The notes under the pieces were generated by a model. That model made no database searches. It was not told the DNA's origin and saw only the letters and a list, made by a program, of their open reading frames with translations. Shown here one piece after another: positions 4,244-20,437 of a stretch of DNA of 20,664 nucleotides. Numbering within the stretch: the first letter of the stretch is position 1; each line of letters starts with the position of its first letter. Both the position numbers and the translations under genes were made by a program. Source of the stretch: a virus. The stretch is from positions 1-20,664 of the IMG/VR virus record IMGVR_UViG_3300034198_021551; one strand, written 5' to 3'.

Positions 4244-4272
4244 CCTTGCGGACCAGTCTACAAGGAGCAGAT

Positions 4273-7200
4273 ATGTTGAAGTACGTCACACAAGTTTTTC
4301 TTATGTGTATGTTGATGACAACCATCACGTATGCACAGCAGACAGAATCACGAATTATCGGAAAGATTACCGACACTACACGAGCCGTACTGCCTGGTGT
4401 GTCCATCACGGTCACGTCACACCAGACAGGAACGGCTCGTGTTGTTGTATCTGACAGTGTTGGTGTGTATGCTATTACCAATCTATCACCAGGCAAGTAT
4501 GCAGTTGACGCTATGCTTGACGGGTTCGCACCCACACATCGCGATATTGTGCTTGGAGTTGGACAGATTGAGACACTGGATGTGACGTTGAGTGTCGGAT
4601 TGACTGATGTGGTACAAGTAGATGCGAACGTACCTGTACTCGATATATCTTCTGCAAAGATTGGCGTGAATGTGTCGTCAGCAGAGATTGAAAGTCTTCC
4701 CGTCAATGGACGAAACTTCGCGAATCTAATGACGCTGGCTACGGGTGCCACTACAGATGGTAATGGTGGGTGGGCAACGGTTCGTTTCAATGGGAAGTCG
4801 AACCAACAAAACTATCTTAGCTATGACGGTGTTGACGGCACATATGTGTGGGATGCAACACCCAGTTATCTGAACGCAACGGGTTCGCAGTTTCGACTGC
4901 AAACATCAATGGAGGCGGTCGGAGAGTTTCGAGTGAATTCGGGTTTGGCACCGGCTGAGAGTGGATTGGGCTCAGGTGGCAACATTTCAGTTGTGACTAA
5001 AAGTGGGAGCAACCAACGTAGCGGGTCGGTGTTTACGTATCATCGTAATGACAAACTTGACGCGGTGAGTCCTTACGACAACGTGAAGCAACCGATGCGG
5101 CTGAATCAATTTGGAGGTTCTTTTGGTGGCCCACTCAAAGCGAATCGCACCTTTATATTCGGCAGCTATGAGGGATTGCGACAGACCACAGGTCTCTCGT
5201 TCACTGAAGCGGTGCCAAGCGACACGGCGCGCACACTAATTCTATCATCTGCAAATACCCGAACTCTGGCGGTCGCGCCACTGTTGTCTGGATTTCCACG
5301 CGGAACGACCCCCACGTCCAATCCTCTCGTCTCGCTCGCGACGAACTCCACCAATGCAACCCAGCGTGAACATAGCGCCGCATTTCGGTTTGACCAGACA
5401 ATTACGGCAAATCATTCGTTGTATCTGCGGTATCTCCGAAGCGATGGAACGCTCGACACGCCAGACCGCACGGTTACCCCAAGACGTATCCTTGCGCATG
5501 AACACGCGCAGAATGTCGTCGTTAACCTTCAGTCTATCTTTGGTCGGGCGGTCAATGAGTTGAAGCTCGGATACAATGTACCACACACAGATGCGACTGC
5601 GTATGGTCCTAGCGGATATGATGCCGTTGGGGTATCGCTATCGGGGTCATTTACGTCATCGTCTATTGATGCCCGTGGCACAACAGGTATTGCAAGAAGT
5701 GGATTGCTGATTCGCGCATCATCTGCATCATCCACGGTGGGTTCTGTATTTGCGCCGCAGTCGGTATCGTTTGCGGACACACTTACGTGGAATCGCAGTA
5801 ATCATACATTCAAGTTCGGAACCGAGTATCGAGCAATTCGTGGTGATTTCAAGTACCTTGATAGTACCGAGATTGCGTATAACAGCATCAATGATTTCAT
5901 TGCGAATACACCGAATTCGGTTGCGGTCGCACTGGACTCTCCAATGTTCAGTCCACGGCAATACTATCTCATCGGGTTCGCACAAGATTCATGGCGAATC
6001 ACACCACGCATGACCGCAGAACTCGGTTTACGCTACGATTTCTATTCGGTTGTTCGTGAAGCATACGGGCGGGCGCGTCCCTTCTTCGTTGAAGATAATG
6101 CCTTTGCAACAGATGCGAATAACTTCTACGATCCAGACTACAATAACGTCGCACCTCGAACATCTATATCGTATCAAGTGACACCAAAGACGGTTGTGCG
6201 TGGCGGATTTGGCATTTTCTACGGACCTGGCCAGTTTGAAGATCGTATTCAGCCCATCGAAAACTATATTCAGCGTCGAAAGGTCACTGCTGCGGATTTA
6301 CCTGCCGGACAATTAGCATACCCTGTACCCACATCCGCATACAAGGACATTCTTGCAATTCGTGGCTACACCCATCATCGCCCTGACGAATACAACGTCC
6401 AGTATGGAGGAAGTCTTTCGCGAGAGCTGCCCGGGTCAACCAGCCTGACTATTGGTTACACAGGTAGTCGCGGCCGCGACATGTTCTTACGAGGTGTAGG
6501 AAACACACTCGATACGACAACGCTCGTACGACTCGCGCCAAGTGTGGGACAGGTTGACTATAAAACATCTGGATGTCTCAATGGTCTGGTGATTGCGAAA
6601 ACCCCGATATATGGCTGTGGTGTGGCGGCATATGACGCGGTTCAACTCAATGCGACGCGTAGATTCCATCGCGGCGTTACTGCGGCTTTCCAGTATCAGT
6701 TTTCGCGAAATCGAGGCACGACACAAGGGTCAAACGAAGCCGCCACAACACAGAACACATTTGATTTTACGACAGAATACGGCACCAATCCGCAAGACAT
6801 CCCACACACGTTCAACGGGTCATTGGTCTATGACGTACACGGATGGCACATCGGCGCGATGGTGAATGCTCGGAGTGGTGTGCCATTGAATGTGACGATT
6901 AACCGACCCGATAACATCACGGTGAATGGGGTGACGGTTGCCAACATTCCCGGTGGAAATAGTCGAGGCACACAACGTCCTGATTTGATTCCGCATGTGA
7001 ATCCGTATCTCAAGGATGGTGTACGGTGGTTGAATCCTGCGGCGTTTGCTACACCGCAGCCCGGCACGTTTGGGAATCTCCCACGCAACTACCTCCGTGG
7101 TCCTGCGTTTTGGCAAACGGATGTTATGGTAAGCCGTGATATACATCGGATGCAATTTCGCGTAGACGTGTTCAATGTGCTGAATCACTTGAACTATGAG

Positions 7201-7359
7201 AATCCTGCCGTTAATCTGCCGAATGGAATTCCAGGCGTTCCGTTTAACTCGACAACTGCGGGCACATTTGGATACATTATGGGACCGCTTAATCGTACGG
7301 TTGGACTTGGCACCGCACGGCAAGTACAAGGTTCTATTCGCTATTCATTTGGACACTAA
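4273..7359 (+). CDS. Oar-like TonB-dependent outer-membrane receptor with carboxypeptidase-regulatory domain
   Basis: Outer-membrane beta-barrel transporter of 1028 residues. Seen: a signal peptide at residues 1-21 ending TYA before QQ; an immunoglobulin-like carboxypeptidase-regulatory domain at about 27-108 (IIGKITD, LPGVSITV, GVYAITNLSPGKYAV); a plug region from about 111 with SLPVNGRNFANLM; then GGNISVVTKSGSN, RNDKLDA, NQFGGSFGGPL and FIFGSYEGLR, words typical of acidobacterial Oar-like receptors; and a C-terminus ending YSFGH, with the aromatic residue near the end as in barrels recognised by the Bam machinery. No frameshift or stop is seen. The start at ATG 4273 has AAGGAG six bases upstream; an in-frame TTG at 4246 has no such site. 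The gene is flanked by phage recombination genes on the left and by Hsp20, Dps and gp32 on the right, so it is carried by the phage. Its substrate cannot be inferred. Confidence 0.92.
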   Translation: MLKYVTQVFLMCMLMTTITYAQQTESRIIGKITDTTRAVLPGVSITVTSHQTGTARVVVSDSVGVYAITNLSPGKYAVDAMLDGFAPTHRDIVLGVGQIETLDVTLSVGLTDVVQVDANVPVLDISSAKIGVNVSSAEIESLPVNGRNFANLMTLATGATTDGNGGWATVRFNGKSNQQNYLSYDGVDGTYVWDATPSYLNATGSQFRLQTSMEAVGEFRVNSGLAPAESGLGSGGNISVVTKSGSNQRSGSVFTYHRNDKLDAVSPYDNVKQPMRLNQFGGSFGGPLKANRTFIFGSYEGLRQTTGLSFTEAVPSDTARTLILSSANTRTLAVAPLLSGFPRGTTPTSNPLVSLATNSTNATQREHSAAFRFDQTITANHSLYLRYLRSDGTLDTPDRTVTPRRILAHEHAQNVVVNLQSIFGRAVNELKLGYNVPHTDATAYGPSGYDAVGVSLSGSFTSSSIDARGTTGIARSGLLIRASSASSTVGSVFAPQSVSFADTLTWNRSNHTFKFGTEYRAIRGDFKYLDSTEIAYNSINDFIANTPNSVAVALDSPMFSPRQYYLIGFAQDSWRITPRMTAELGLRYDFYSVVREAYGRARPFFVEDNAFATDANNFYDPDYNNVAPRTSISYQVTPKTVVRGGFGIFYGPGQFEDRIQPIENYIQRRKVTAADLPAGQLAYPVPTSAYKDILAIRGYTHHRPDEYNVQYGGSLSRELPGSTSLTIGYTGSRGRDMFLRGVGNTLDTTTLVRLAPSVGQVDYKTSGCLNGLVIAKTPIYGCGVAAYDAVQLNATRRFHRGVTAAFQYQFSRNRGTTQGSNEAATTQNTFDFTTEYGTNPQDIPHTFNGSLVYDVHGWHIGAMVNARSGVPLNVTINRPDNITVNGVTVANIPGGNSRGTQRPDLIPHVNPYLKDGVRWLNPAAFATPQPGTFGNLPRNYLRGPAFWQTDVMVSRDIHRMQFRVDVFNVLNHLNYENPAVNLPNGIPGVPFNSTTAGTFGYIMGPLNRTVGLGTARQVQGSIRYSFGH

Positions 7360-7376
7360 ATAGTAATGTTCAACCG

Positions 7377-7405
7377 CGACGATGATGCCTTCGGGGTCAT
7401 CGTCG
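7377..7405 (+). terminator. Hairpin after the receptor gene, weak intrinsic terminator or leader hairpin
   Basis: A perfect 9-bp stem (CGACGATGA with TCATCGTCG) and an 11-base loop are followed by TTT. A TAAATA box at 7357-7362, overlapping the receptor stop codon, lies just upstream. If that box is a promoter, the hairpin sits in the hsp20 leader instead of ending the receptor transcript. The T-tract is short, so termination would be partial. Confidence 0.55.
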
Positions 7406-7432
7406 TTTAACCGTCGCTCTAAGGAGGACACC

Positions 7433-7906
7433 ATGACTCAGAATTACCTGCCTGCCAGTCTGCTTTCCAACACTTTCTTCCAGACCACTATCGGGTACGA
7501 CCGGATTTTCGGCGAACTTCGAACACTACTGGAAACCACCCCGACGAAGCCATCAAACTACCCGCCGCACAATATCATTCAGGTGGATGACCACGTGTTT
7601 GATATTCATGTCGGTGTTGCAGGATTCGATATCGAGGATCTTGAAGTTTATACTGAAAAGCAGCAATTGGTGATTAAGGGCAAGCGAGAACACCCGACCG
7701 ATGAGAATGCGAAGTATATCCATCGCGGTCTCGCACTGCGCTCGTTCGAGAAGGTGATTCCCATCGCAGACACGATTGAGCTAAAGGGTGCATACATGAA
7801 CAACGGCTTTCTCCGTATCACGGTCGAGAATGTTGTGCCGGAAAAGGATAAGCGCAAGCAAATCGAGATTCGTCACGAATACACCAAAGAACTTCCCACC
7901 GAATAG
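7433..7906 (+). CDS. hsp20: Hsp20/alpha-crystallin family small heat-shock protein
   Basis: ATP-independent chaperone that holds unfolding proteins; phage-borne members are common in T4-like cyanophages. The 157-residue protein has a short N-terminal arm (1-45), an alpha-crystallin domain at about 46-135 (VFDIHVGVAGFDIEDLEV, QQLVIKGKRE, RSFEKVIPIAD) and the A-x-x-x-N-G-x-L signature as AYMNNGFLRI at 120-129, followed by a charged tail. The start ATG has a strong AAGGAGG site eight bases upstream; longer in-frame forms from 7382 would run through the upstream hairpin and are unlikely. It lies between two hairpins, so it is probably a single-gene transcript. The function in infection (folding of phage structural proteins or stress protection) is inference. 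Confidence 0.93.
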   Translation: MTQNYLPASLLSNTFFQTTIGYDRIFGELRTLLETTPTKPSNYPPHNIIQVDDHVFDIHVGVAGFDIEDLEVYTEKQQLVIKGKREHPTDENAKYIHRGLALRSFEKVIPIADTIELKGAYMNNGFLRITVENVVPEKDKRKQIEIRHEYTKELPTE

Positions 7907-7919
7907 TCCTGTCCCACAG

Positions 7920-7947
7920 CACCGGGAAGGTTCTCACCTTCCCGGTG
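7920..7947 (+). terminator. Intrinsic terminator hairpin after hsp20
   Basis: A perfect 11-bp GC-rich stem (CACCGGGAAGG with CCTTCCCGGTG) and a 6-base loop, 13 bases after the hsp20 stop. The following bases are TTCCTAAATA, so the T-tract is weak. Its position between two separately promoted genes supports termination. Confidence 0.7.
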
Positions 7948-7951
7948 TTCC

Positions 7952-7957
7952 TAAATA
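7952..7957 (+). promoter_or_regulatory. TAAATA box, candidate late promoter of the Dps-like gene
   Basis: CTAAATAT begins four bases after the hsp20 terminator stem and 37 bases before the Dps-like start. With T4-like spacing the start of transcription would be near 7963. The leader contains a GAGGA ribosome site at about 7977-7981 and a small TCCTCA/TGAGGA inverted repeat that could mask it. Confidence 0.5.
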
Positions 7958-7987
7958 TCCTCATCACTCTCTTTTTGAGGATCCTTT

Positions 7988-8470
7988 ATGGCAACCAACC
8001 CATCGTCACCAGCAGAAGCCGCACTTATTGCGGCAATGAAAGAACTTCTTGGCAACGTCTACGTCATGTACCTTCGTGCGCATGGTGCGCATTGGAACAT
8101 CGAAGGCCCACTCTTCGCGAGTCTCCACGACTTCTTCGGTGATATTTACGAAGACGTTTTTGGGTCAGCAGATACGATTGCAGAGGGTATTCGACAGCAC
8201 GGCGCGTACGCACCCTTCAATCTAGCGCATCTGGTTAAGCTGTCAACGATTGGGGACGCGACAATTACGTTTGAAGGAGGGGGTGCGCCCTCACCGCTTC
8301 TTCAGGACTTGTACGATGTCAATGAAGCAGTGAGAGCGTCGCTCAAGAAGGCGTATCGTGCTGCGGAGCAGGCGGAGGATTATGGTCTTTCGAACTTCTT
8401 TCAAGACCGTCTAGCCATGCATCAAAAGTGGATGTGGCAGATCAAGTCGCATCTGGGTCTTGGTAAGTAA
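7988..8470 (+). CDS. dps: Dps-like ferritin (DNA-protecting iron-storage protein)
   Basis: Dps proteins form 12-subunit shells that oxidise iron with peroxide and shield DNA. The 160-residue protein shows the family core AHWNIEGPLFASLHDFF and AEGIR, with all four usual ferroxidase ligands in place: His35, His47, Asp62 and Glu66. Length is typical. The start is preceded by GAGGA and by a TAAATA box after a terminator, so the gene looks independently transcribed. Together with the receptor and Hsp20 it forms an auxiliary block that may help the infected cell or the phage DNA cope with iron and oxidative stress (inference). The stop is directly followed by the end of a convergent small gene, with no terminator between. 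Confidence 0.93.
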   Translation: MATNPSSPAEAALIAAMKELLGNVYVMYLRAHGAHWNIEGPLFASLHDFFGDIYEDVFGSADTIAEGIRQHGAYAPFNLAHLVKLSTIGDATITFEGGGAPSPLLQDLYDVNEAVRASLKKAYRAAEQAEDYGLSNFFQDRLAMHQKWMWQIKSHLGLGK

Positions 8471-10623: not shown

Positions 10624-10748
10624 GATGGTCTACACAGATATACACGCAAGATTATGTTGCGTCTATGGATACGCGCAACAATTAAGGTGCTGGTTTCTGT
10701 TGCCGAGAGAGCCAGCGTCTCCGACTGTCCGTAGACAATCAAGTGCGG

Positions 10749-10808
10749 CTACTAGGCCGCGAGTGCGTAACTGTTATCAGTTACTGTGTGTCTCTGTTTA
10801 ACGTCAGC
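10749..10808 (-). other. tmRNA tag reading frame (18 codons, tandem TAG stops)
   Basis: The resume codon is GCT after AAGTC, the same context as AGTC-GCA in E. coli. The frame encodes ADVKQRHTVTDNSYALAA, followed by TAG TAG. The terminal ALAA is the ClpXP/ClpAP recognition end, and NSYALAA resembles the E. coli end (ENYALAA). At 18 codons it is longer than the 10-codon E. coli tag reading frame. The resume codon is inferred by pattern only. Confidence 0.8.
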
Positions 10809-10869
10809 GACTTGACGATTGTCTCCATGTCGTTCTGCCAATACCCCGTCGAAGCCAGATCGCCCCCAT

Positions 10870-10984
10870 CATCAACACACCACATCACCACGCGCTACCC
10901 ACCCCAGTTTCCCCGTACAACGTCCACGTCAGCCGACGAATTAGGTTCTGGGCCTTAGCCTTGTCCGTGTGTGATGTGCTGATG
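10870..10984 (-). repeat. Structured RNA motif, copy 1, joining the two tmRNA halves
   Basis: Between CCA and the mature 5' G lies a stem-loop that continues the acceptor stem. A 14-bp helix (10984-10971 with 10883-10870, two G-U pairs) leads to an A opposite GTGAT, then CACG/CGTG, then conserved single strands (10965-10952 and 10901-10893), then an inner stem CCCAG/CTGGG. The strand at 10882-10901 is identical to 20291-20310, and 10952-10972 matches 20414-20434 with one change. The two copies share strand order but not the flanking stem sequences. Confidence 0.75.
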
Positions 10985-11045
10985 GTGGAGGCGGCGGGAG
11001 TCGAACCCGCGTCCGCGATATCCGTTCAACACTTCATCGACAATA

Positions 11046-11447
11046 TCAATATTTAGTCGGTATCTCGTTCAAATAGTTGATCGCGTTTTGTAATATTGTA
11101 GTGTTAGGAAATGCACCTAACGCTCGATTACATGTGTGACAGAGCCAGCCCCGGAATTCTTTTGTTTCGTGGTCGTGGTCTACCGTCCACGGTGATGTGA
11201 ATCTGTTTCCAGCATTTCTAACTTCGTCTTCTGTCTTTTGGCAGATGGGGCATGTATGATTTTTTGGTGACGGATACTGTTTGCGCAAGGCCTTGCGTTC
11301 GTTTGCCAACATACGTTCACATCGTTTGCACTCGGAACGAAGATAGTTGGCACCGCTGGCCACTGTGTATTCGTGTAATGGTAATTCGTTGCTACATTTA
11401 CTACACTTTTTGGTTTCCTCTGTAGAAGGCCCGAATAAAGTATCCAT
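11046..11447 (-). CDS. Endonuclease VII-like HNH nuclease with zinc ribbons
   Basis: 133 residues. Paired cysteines at 15/18, 40/43, 66/69 and 103/106 form zinc sites, and the catalytic segment VDHDHE (89-94) followed by GWLCHTCNRALG (100-111) is the hallmark of the recombination endonuclease VII family (T4 gp49 type), also found in free-standing homing nucleases. No clear ribosome site precedes the ATG. The base composition is visibly richer in A and T than its neighbours, which hints at later arrival. Its last codons (Thr-Lys-Tyr-stop) contain the CTAAATAT box that probably drives the tmRNA. Holliday-junction resolvase and homing nuclease are both possible; at 133 residues it is shorter than T4 gp49 (157). 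Confidence 0.85.
   Translation of the reverse strand: MDTLFGPSTEETKKCSKCSNELPLHEYTVASGANYLRSECKRCERMLANERKALRKQYPSPKNHTCPICQKTEDEVRNAGNRFTSPWTVDHDHETKEFRGWLCHTCNRALGAFPNTTILQNAINYLNEIPTKY
11049..11056 (-). promoter_or_regulatory. CTAAATAT box, candidate late promoter of the tmRNA
   Basis: The box lies inside the last codons of the HNH gene. With T4 late-promoter spacing (last A of the box at -6) transcription would start at 11044, exactly the first base of the helix-2 strand ATTGTC of the acceptor half. This fit supports both the promoter and the 5' end of the RNA. Confidence 0.55.
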
Positions 11448-11458
11448 ATTTGGGTCAA

Positions 11459-11650
11459 CTACAGGCGGGTATATCTAGAATCAATCGGCGCAATCAGATC
11501 ATCCCCCTCCATCACATGCAAGACCGATGCAATTTTTGCCACCACATCACGAATCGCTTCGTTATTCATGGCAATATTGGCATAGTAAATCTTGCTGACC
11601 ATATCTTCACACCATTCGTGGTACTCGTTGACTGTTTGAAATTTAGCCAT
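11459..11650 (-). CDS. Small protein of unknown function, 63 residues
   Basis: Not recognised. The protein is mixed in charge and mainly helical in appearance (NEYHEWCEDMVSKIYY, NNEAIRDVVAKIASVLHVM). It ends 11 bases before the HNH start on the same strand. The bases around its start (CGCATATGGCTA, then AAATTTC) are nearly the same as around the gp32 start, which supports the chosen ATG and suggests a shared leader. No standard ribosome site is visible. Confidence 0.65.
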   Translation of the reverse strand: MAKFQTVNEYHEWCEDMVSKIYYANIAMNNEAIRDVVAKIASVLHVMEGDDLIAPIDSRYTRL

Positions 11651-11698
11651 ATGCGCATATCCGGCGTGGTTACTTTTTCAATCTACGTGACTCACTGA

Positions 11699-12373
11699 TT
11701 ATAGCACAGGATTGTGATAGTGAGAGTAGTATTCGTCAATCCGTTCGCGTAGCGTGGTGTATTGTTCTGCCGGTTTGGTTTCGAAAATCTGAAACCCGTC
11801 AGGTGAGACGATGGGAAAGATGATCCGTGAGACTTTTTTGCCGGTATGTTCAAAGACACAGAGTGCATAGAAACAGCCTTGTAGATAGTAGTCGCGTACG
11901 TATTCCTCTTTCTTGAGTCTGCGACTTGTCTTGAAATCGACTACCGACAGTTCACCATCGACTGTTGCCAGCAAGTCCATACGACCTGCCACTTTGAGAT
12001 ATGCGGAGTAGGTGTCCTGCTCTTGTGCGTGGATTGTCTGAAGATGATCGTGCATCCACGGCGAGAGCTTCGACCAGTAGTCTCTTACGGTATCGTCCGT
12101 AGTTGAGAGATCGATGGGAAGGTTGTCGAGATATGCTTCGGCGAGCGCATGGAGAGACGTCCCGCGTGACGTAGACTCCTGCGTAATACGCTGCGCTTCC
12201 GCAGTCCCGACGCGCCTCTTCCATGCGTCGAGCGCAGGTTTTGGTTTCGCACCGAGAACACGCGTGATGGAGGGAAACCGCTCACCCGTATCGAGAACTT
12301 CGTAGACCCGACCTTCTGGCAAATTTCTTTGCTGAAGTTTTGGAAAGATGAACGGCTGATGGTAAAAAGTCAT
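11699..12373 (-). CDS. PD-(D/E)XK exonuclease (RecB/Cas4/MGME1-like)
   Basis: A 224-residue nuclease of the RecB-like superfamily, similar in plan to phage proteins often annotated as mitochondrial genome maintenance exonuclease. Seen: SRGTSLHALAEAYL (69-82), which carries the conserved His of the RecB family; GRMDLLA (130-136) with the metal-binding Asp133; VDFKTSRR (145-152) with Asp146 and Lys148 of the D-x-K motif; and YYLQGCFYAL with Gln165 (motif QxxxY-like). All catalytic residues are present. It probably trims DNA ends in replication or recombination. No Shine-Dalgarno site is present, but TATAAT ends seven bases before the ATG (see the separate entry). Confidence 0.88.
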   Translation of the reverse strand: MTFYHQPFIFPKLQQRNLPEGRVYEVLDTGERFPSITRVLGAKPKPALDAWKRRVGTAEAQRITQESTSRGTSLHALAEAYLDNLPIDLSTTDDTVRDYWSKLSPWMHDHLQTIHAQEQDTYSAYLKVAGRMDLLATVDGELSVVDFKTSRRLKKEEYVRDYYLQGCFYALCVFEHTGKKVSRIIFPIVSPDGFQIFETKPAEQYTTLRERIDEYYSHYHNPVL

Positions 12374-19201: not shown

Positions 19202-19948
19202 ATGATCTCATTTCGCGAACATCTTGCTCTTACTGAAGGGGTCGATGACCCCGGCATTCTCAAATGCGTGTTTATGGCCGGTGGGCCCGGTAGTGGAAAA
19301 TCGACGGCCGCAGAGGAACTATTTGGCATCGATCCCAAGATCAAAAGCTCCTTCAGCACCTATGGTCTCAAGGTGGTGAACTCAGACCGAGAGTTTGAAC
19401 GACTGCTCAAACTGCACGGTGTTCCAACAGACTTGGACACGCTCAAAACCACGAATCCCACACAGTATAATTGGGCGATGGAATTGCGCGGTCATGCGAA
19501 AGACACGACGACGAAACTCCGCGCACAATATGAACAGGGTCGTCTGGGGTTGATCATCGATGGTACGGGTCGGGACTATGACGATATTCGTGATCAACGT
19601 GAGCAATCTATGGCGATGGGATACGACTGCTACATGGTGTTTGTTAACACCGAGCTTGATGTGGCACTAGAGCGGAATCGTCGGCGGAGTGTTGCGGGTG
19701 GTCGGACGGTTGGCGAGGACATCGTCAAAGAGTTTTGGGAAGCGTGTCAGCGAAATCTTGGCAAGTTCCAGCGACTCTTTGGGGGGACGAATTTTCTGGT
19801 GGTCGATTCGCGAAACGACAAAGACAAAAATCGGCATATTCTTGAATTGTCGGGTAAAGCTATTCGTCGATGGGTTGCCGAACCGGTGAAGAATCATCGC
19901 GGCGCTCAATGGATTCGACTCATGGGGGGTCGTCACGGTCACCACTAA
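19202..19948 (+). CDS. P-loop kinase (zeta-toxin-like/polynucleotide-kinase-like fold)
   Basis: 248 residues. The Walker A motif is AGGPGSGKST at 26-35, LKVVNSDREFERLL (56-69 region) holds an acidic acceptor-site Asp, GLIIDGTGRDYDDI is a Walker-B-like strand, and LERNRRRSVAGGRTV is the Arg-rich lid. This is the phage kinase family related to zeta toxins and T4-type polynucleotide kinases; similar genes are common in T4-like phages as I recall them. The N-terminus MISFREHLALTEG is unusual: LTE-G at 10-13 fits the T4 prohead protease site (L/I-x-E before A/G), so the first 12 residues may be a capsid-targeting sequence. The phosphorylated substrate is unknown. Confidence 0.87.
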   Translation: MISFREHLALTEGVDDPGILKCVFMAGGPGSGKSTAAEELFGIDPKIKSSFSTYGLKVVNSDREFERLLKLHGVPTDLDTLKTTNPTQYNWAMELRGHAKDTTTKLRAQYEQGRLGLIIDGTGRDYDDIRDQREQSMAMGYDCYMVFVNTELDVALERNRRRSVAGGRTVGEDIVKEFWEACQRNLGKFQRLFGGTNFLVVDSRNDKDKNRHILELSGKAIRRWVAEPVKNHRGAQWIRLMGGRHGHH

Positions 19949-19985: not shown

Positions 19986-20261
19986 CTAACGGTTTCGCTT
20001 TCGGCTGGCTTTCGCGAGAGCGTCTTTCTTCCGATTGCGCGTCTTGCGGTTCGCTTTCGTACCATGCGGGTCGCTGATGCGCTGTGCTTTGGTGAGCATC
20101 TTTCGCAGCATCTGCATTTCCTTCAGTGACCGTTCCATCTTCGCAATCGTCTCCGGTGACGGTGCGTTCGGGTCAATGGTCAACCGTGTCGGTGAGTTAT
20201 CGATTGCCAGTGTCTGCCCACCATCGGTCGGTGGAATGATCTCATATTCAACGTGTTCCAT
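19986..20261 (-). CDS. Small protein with a strongly basic C-terminus
   Basis: 91 residues, not recognised. The N-terminal 35 residues are acidic to neutral (MEHVEYEIIPPTDGG), the middle is a predicted helix (PETIAKMERSLKEMQMLRKML), and the last 25 residues are very rich in Lys and Arg (NRKTRNRKKDALAKASRKRNR), which suggests nucleic-acid binding. AAAGGAA lies ten bases before the ATG. Its leader carries copy 2 of the structured RNA motif, so it may be controlled by that RNA. Confidence 0.78.
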   Translation of the reverse strand: MEHVEYEIIPPTDGGQTLAIDNSPTRLTIDPNAPSPETIAKMERSLKEMQMLRKMLTKAQRISDPHGTKANRKTRNRKKDALAKASRKRNR

Positions 20262-20287: not shown

Positions 20288-20437
20288 ACGACATCACCAC
20301 GCGCTACCCATCCTGATGTGCGCCGCTTGTGGATTCCAACAAACTACTTATGGGTTTTGAAGCTCAGTAACTACAGGACTCGCACCTGCTGGTATCTCCT
20401 TCACCCACATCAAGCCTCAGCCTTGTCCGTGTGTCGT
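20288..20437 (-). ncRNA. Structured RNA motif, copy 2, in the leader of the basic-protein gene
   Basis: The two conserved strands of the tmRNA joining segment recur here in the same order, one of 20 bases identical (20291-20310) and one of 21 bases with a single change (20414-20434). The outer stem is ACGAC/GTCGT (20437-20433 with 20292-20288), where copy 1 has ATCAC/GTGGT, and the inner stem is CTTGATGTG/CACATCAGG (20414-20406 with 20320-20312), where copy 1 has CCCAG/CTGGG. CACG/CGTG and the A opposite GTGAT are kept. The loop is about 85 nt longer than the short inner part of copy 1 would require and contains further hairpins, one resembling a T-arm (20373-20389). It ends 27 bases before the downstream ATG (20261). 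Confidence 0.65.

Follow-up and report, generated by a model that had tools for sequence, protein, structure and literature searches.

The window analysed here is a stretch of 20,664 nt, positions 1 to 20,664 of the IMG/VR virus record IMGVR_UViG_3300034198_021551, and it carries two copies of one structured RNA motif on its minus strand (Table 1). Copy 1 sits inside the precursor of a permuted two-piece tmRNA, while copy 2 sits in the leader of a gene for a small basic protein of 91 amino acids. ARAGORN also calls the tmRNA (tmRNA* at 10661-11075, tag DNSYALAA), and both its match to RF04321 and the order of its pieces, with a CCA-bearing 3' half (CCA end at 10985-10983, minus strand) standing before copy 1 and the 5' half, place it among the permuted tmRNAs. 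Copy 2 occupies a gap of about 200 nt, bounded on one side by the minus-strand 91-aa ORF and on the other by a possible small ORF on the plus strand that begins at about 20460 (MLTFRTFLIETD...) and would make the gap a divergent one. The assignment of copy 2 to the 91-aa gene's leader, already made in an initial annotation of this DNA, is correct: the element's end lies close to AAAGGAA and 26 nt upstream of the ATG at 20261. Neither a sigma-70 promoter nor a terminator was found close to copy 2, the 91-aa ORF matched no family of Pfam or PHROG, and BLAST of the window segment against phages gave no match.

Table 1 Features of the two motif copies and of their neighbourhood in the window
Feature	Position	Strand	Remarks
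Copy 2, whole element	20288-20437	minus	Type P1 (P1 open, P2 hairpin closed); both arms and covarying P1
Copy 2, P1 5' strand ACGACAC	20431-20437	minus	Pairs with 20288-20295
Copy 2, left conserved strand ACGGACAAGGCTGAGGC	20414-20430	minus	Same as copy 1 over 12+ nt; no variation within the family
Copy 2, variable P2 arm	20312-20414	minus	Fold; enlarged interior includes T-arm-like hairpin 20373-20389
Copy 2, P2 basal helix CTTGATGTG with CACATCAGG	20414-20406 with 20320-20312	minus	Fold
Copy 2, right conserved strand ATGGGTAGCGCGTGGT	20296-20311	minus	Same as copy 1 from TGGG on; family-conserved
Copy 2, P1 3' strand GATGTCGT, bulged A	20288-20295	minus	Fold
91-aa basic ORF 3' of copy 2	19986-20261	minus	AAAGGAA ribosome site at 20273-20267
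Copy 1, whole element	10866-10982	minus	Fills the segment between the permuted tmRNA 3' half and 5' half
Copy 1, left conserved strand ACGGACAAGGCTAAGGC	10952-10968	minus	
Copy 1, right conserved strand GTGGGTAGCGCGTGGT	10887-10902	minus	
Permuted two-piece tmRNA, copy 1 between its halves	10752-11045	minus	Rfam RF04321, 91 bits, E 1e-16

That the two copies share a motif was an early proposal, and both arms bear it out. The left arm ACACACGGACAAGGCTNAGGC lies at 20434-20414 and 10972-10952 on the minus strand, with 16 nt identical between the copies, and the right arm GGGTAGCGCGTGGTGATGT is the same in both (20309-20291 and 10900-10882; 19 nt), where the chance expectation of the right arm in the window is 0.01 with three mismatches allowed. 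P1 of copy 2 is formed by ACGACA/UGUCGU together with C-G, A-U and C-G pairs around a bulged A, and P2 pairs as CUUGAUGUG/CACAUCAGG. Forcing copy 2 into the family consensus gave -47.1 against a free minimum of -47.3, a cost of 0.2 kcal/mol. The folding energy was unusual for copy 1 (z = -4.1) and ordinary for copy 2 (z = -0.12), and because fold energy alone carries no signal for copy 2, the case for the motif rests on comparison. With the covariance model R1, copy 1 was recovered at E 7e-12, but a 102-nt insert in the P2 arm limited the match in copy 2 to its left half (E 6e-4). The P2 interior of copy 2 differs between members, and it is in this variable part that the T-arm-like hairpin GCAGGUGCGAGUCCUGU lies; the hairpin is present in copy 2 as first described, but it was not seen in other members with a long P2 and does not define the motif.

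Scanning IMG/VR with the left arm alone (ACGGACAAGGCTNAGGC) listed at least 120 stretches, and in about 100 of 120 of those listed a second arm (GGGNNGCGNGUGGU) followed 11-150 nt downstream. When the right arm was used for the scan instead, almost every two-arm locus showed ACGGACAAGGCT of the left arm without a mismatch, followed by two variable bases; scanning in both directions tests how conserved each arm is without a bias from the pattern used to find it. After removal of duplicates the family set held at least 107 distinct instances, all counts being lower bounds, and R1, though not trained on them, detected copies in named phages with E-values of 2e-11 to 1e-8 and better. Left-arm matches in bacterial genomes were mostly chance, with 8 of 10 lacking the right arm at its usual position; one of the eight is the permuted copy L159 (below). 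Copy 2 belongs to a new, widespread structured-RNA family of tailed phages.

The consensus of this family runs from P1, ending N-A-C / G-U-N', through the left core and P2 to the right core, with the two core strands, GGACAAGGCUNNGG on the left and RUGGGNNGCGNGUG on the right, facing each other between P1 and P2. The core is near-invariant, with about 24 near-invariant positions, and is about 45 nt in the shortest members. The P2 hairpin, free in sequence, measures between 11 and about 145 nt, and a bulged A or ACCA is frequent on the 3' side of P1. The P1 pair that closes onto the core was A-U in 62 instances, G-C in 36 and C-G in 9, without exception among the 107. The P1 helix scored 8.57, compared with 2.11 for shuffled partners (highest shuffle 2.45), and the P2 helix 3.95, compared with 1.73. 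In the UGACCA subtype 199 of 210 P1 pairs were standard, with at least four standard pair types at every position, and in the Streptomyces phages the A-U pair at the core edge is replaced by G-C, changed on both sides.

Either helix, P1 or P2, can be the open end. Four members are circularly permuted (L143, L147, L159 and L174), with the right core first, P1 closed by a loop and P2 open; in each of them the closing pair of P1 is of the Watson-Crick type, and two of the four (L159 and L174) lie between tRNAs. Since the strands occur in either order, that order is immaterial and what counts is only the core with its two helices. A conserved core, covarying sequence-free helices and tolerance of circular permutation are features that the family shares with self-cleaving ribozymes. 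The permuted copy of L147 (minus strand, about 7690-7830) has an outer P2 helix of about 20 bp, with an apparent TAG stop on its 5' side and an ATG immediately after its 3' side. In L143, ARAGORN alone calls a tmRNA* at 11495-11868, about 180 nt downstream of the permuted copy.

The genomic placement of the motif was far from random. The core began within 20 nt of the 3' end of a same-strand tRNA in 37 cases, compared with 0.59 expected at random, a theta-like location directly 3' of tRNAs and on the sense strand, and a second tRNA often flanked the element. Twice the element stood just before a tmRNA (L026 and, by eye, L046). Wherever a locus had a tRNA or tmRNA, the nearest one lay on the element's strand (62/62); the initial annotation had held that a motif confined to the opposite strand in other genomes would speak against its reading, and this is not the case, since the copies that precede genes in other phages share the strand of the closest tRNA throughout. 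The annotation's view that one structured motif occurs on the sense strand of both a tmRNA precursor and an mRNA leader also stands, and the parallel it drew with the tmRNA copy proved correct and fruitful; a reading of copy 1 as special to tmRNA is too narrow.

Copies without a tRNA lay mostly between same-strand genes, often 9-40 nt after the upstream ORF. The ORFs that follow them, as taken from a simple ORF listing, were unrelated and comprised an HNH nuclease, a RecE-like exonuclease, Sak4-like and Erf-like annealing proteins, and unknowns. In a set of related phages (L038, L064, L070 and L130) the motif stands about 110-120 nt before the same large protein, MSFNxRDFKGFTFRSGP... The motif is common in phage contigs, and its named carriers include the Streptomyces phages Mildred21, Jay2Jay, TunaTartare and many relatives (Stanwilliamsviridae), the Arthrobacter phages Atuin and Racecar, and the Microcystis phage Mwe-JY13, with hosts that span Actinobacteria and Cyanobacteria. 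None of the records examined for Streptomyces, Arthrobacter and Microcystis phages annotates the element. GOLLD RNAs were present in the same tRNA clusters as the motif at L022:1007-1413 and L014:8345-8750.

Searches of Rfam 15 with both window copies, L159 and L085 gave no relevant match up to E 10, the negatives including hammerhead, HDV, twister, twister-sister, pistol, hatchet and hairpin ribozymes; for the window copies, all that came up within that limit was the tmRNA itself and weak chance matches far below threshold. Across 140 kb of motif-bearing loci, the best 150 of 201 Rfam matches were tRNA, tmRNA and GOLLD only, with no known ribozyme at equivalent tRNA spacers. We found no record of the motif in Rfam 15 or among the open papers covered, and non-open papers or preprints could describe it. 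For the core sequence itself, none of the 15 papers listed out of 157 chance-type hits was relevant.

Theta ribozymes are HDV-like RNAs of gut phages that follow tRNA genes and have been proposed to process tRNA 3' trailers (PMC10879173). The motif resembles them in being a sense-strand element of tailed phages that stands behind tRNA genes and is also found elsewhere (PMC10879173). Unlike theta ribozymes, which have an HDV fold with a nested pseudoknot and are known from gut phages (PMC10879173), it consists of two helices around a symmetrical conserved core without HDV-like sequence, it is permutable, and its carriers are environmental, Streptomyces, Arthrobacter and Microcystis phages. Membership of the theta/HDV-like group was rejected, as no Rfam family of the HDV clan matched and the core is unrelated to drz-Mtgn-1 (PMC10879173). 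With the twister-sister and 'lantern' ribozymes the motif shares two helices, a conserved internal loop, permutations and CAAGG on one strand, but their loop has 5 + 6 nt and a C-A cleavage step, whereas that of the motif has 14 + 14 nt and another sequence (PMC11620745, PMC5660989). Kinship with twister-sister, considered from GGUGCGAGUCC in copy 2 and the core CAAGG, was also rejected, with no Rfam match and with differing loop sizes, and the GGUGCGAGUCC hairpin was not seen in other motif members. The permuted tmRNAs of Melnitz and HTVC008M (RF04321) have the same order of 3' and then 5' half and a helix across the intervening segment, but that segment is closed by a plain helix (L215, Melnitz-3; L216, HTVC008M, AAACCACTTC/GAAGTGGTTT), whereas the helix in the window carries the motif. 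The motif is therefore an addition, unneeded for a two-piece tmRNA.

A sense-strand fold with a near-invariant core, placed where transcripts must be separated, is the established part of this picture. Judged from sequence, the motif is a candidate self-cleaving ribozyme, with about an even chance of being one, and we prefer this mechanism because it needs no host protein, which suits carriers across Actinobacteria and Cyanobacteria, and because theta ribozymes give it a direct precedent (PMC10879173). The core would cut its own transcript at a site within itself, and the cut would set a tRNA, a tmRNA half or a preceding message free from the RNA behind it, with short tails left to be dealt with by exonucleases and RNase P; at copy 2 the leader stretch that immediately precedes the ribosome site of the 91-aa gene would be removed or exposed. 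Given the permutability, the cut of such a ribozyme would most likely fall within the core, as in the hammerhead, twister and hairpin ribozymes, which also occur circularly permuted (PMC11620745), and not 5' of P1 as in the HDV type. The broader proposal, that the motif may represent a new structural class of self-cleaving ribozyme in two permutations, acting as a host-independent scissor between tRNAs, tmRNA halves and genes in phages of several phyla, has in our judgement slightly short of an even chance. Against a ribozyme, the roughly 24 near-invariant core positions, more than most small ribozymes are known to have, would also suit a protein- or ligand-binding RNA, the permuted copies are few (n = 4), the two-piece tmRNAs of Melnitz and HTVC008M do without the motif, and a tRNA tail ending in the 2',3'-cyclic phosphate that ribozymes usually leave would have to be repaired or trimmed.

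The main rival, which we consider rather unlikely, takes the core as a recognition hairpin for a phage or host nuclease that separates tRNAs, tmRNA halves and cistrons. Such a nuclease would explain the same positional data as a ribozyme, the strong conservation of the core could be the footprint of a protein, and permutation is compatible with a protein that binds an internal loop; however, phages of unrelated hosts would all need that nuclease, and so conserved a loop is unneeded for cutting of the RNase III type. Another model for a host-independent element comes from the put RNAs of phage HK022, cis-acting structured antiterminators that work without a phage protein and consist of two adjacent hairpins near early promoters; to our knowledge they have no link to tRNAs. 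The motif is like them in being a cis-acting structured phage RNA. An antitermination or anti-pausing RNA of this kind, acting on RNA polymerase and keeping tRNA and gene arrays transcribed, would accord with the sense orientation, the intergenic position and the host-independent spread, but it would not require tight placement after tRNA 3' ends or a location within a tmRNA precursor, and we regard it as improbable.

Very improbable is the suggestion, closest to the initial annotation, that copy 2 is a riboswitch-like leader controlling the 91-aa gene. Its short distance to the ATG speaks for this, as does the fact that other tRNA-less copies precede ORFs too, but the downstream genes are without a common function or consistent class, many copies lie between or beside tRNAs and not in leaders, and for the copies next to a tRNA or inside a tmRNA there is no gene to control. 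We also found no relatives of the 91-aa protein in IMG/VR and no Rfam riboswitch match up to E 10. Of the two alternatives first offered, a riboswitch-like or a processing element, general processing fits best, and what has the weakest support in the earlier interpretation is the control of a single gene. Least probable of all is a small insertion-type selfish repeat without a processing role: scattered locations and the plain-helix alternatives at the equivalent place in related permuted tmRNAs would suit it, but in the tRNA-His/tRNA-Arg spacer of related phages the core is kept while the P2 arm changes completely, helix changes are compensatory, and the strand is the same in 62 of 62 loci. 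Copy 2 is therefore an intergenic member of a probable general RNA-processing element, and control of a single gene is too narrow a description. Should the motif prove self-cleaving, it would add a further class of natural ribozymes and a second, independent phage answer to tRNA 3'-trailer processing. As a molecular marker, the motif also bears on why tRNA and tmRNA arrays are retained in phages.

Two further regions of the window bear mention. At 19202-19948 (plus strand) lies an ORF for a P-loop kinase, which matches Zeta_toxin and AAA_33 in Pfam and, weakly, polynucleotide kinase in PHROG and whose relatives occur in Pelagibacter phage HTVC008M and Methylophilales phage Melnitz; this kinase might repair RNA ends, a putative link to cleavage. 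The motif was absent from the 25 records of this phage's relatives found via the kinase gene, and its copies therefore come and go. At 4246-8470 (plus strand) the phage carries bacterial-looking genes for a 1037-aa outer-membrane beta-barrel protein with a carboxypeptidase-regulatory domain, an Hsp20 and a Dps-like ferritin.
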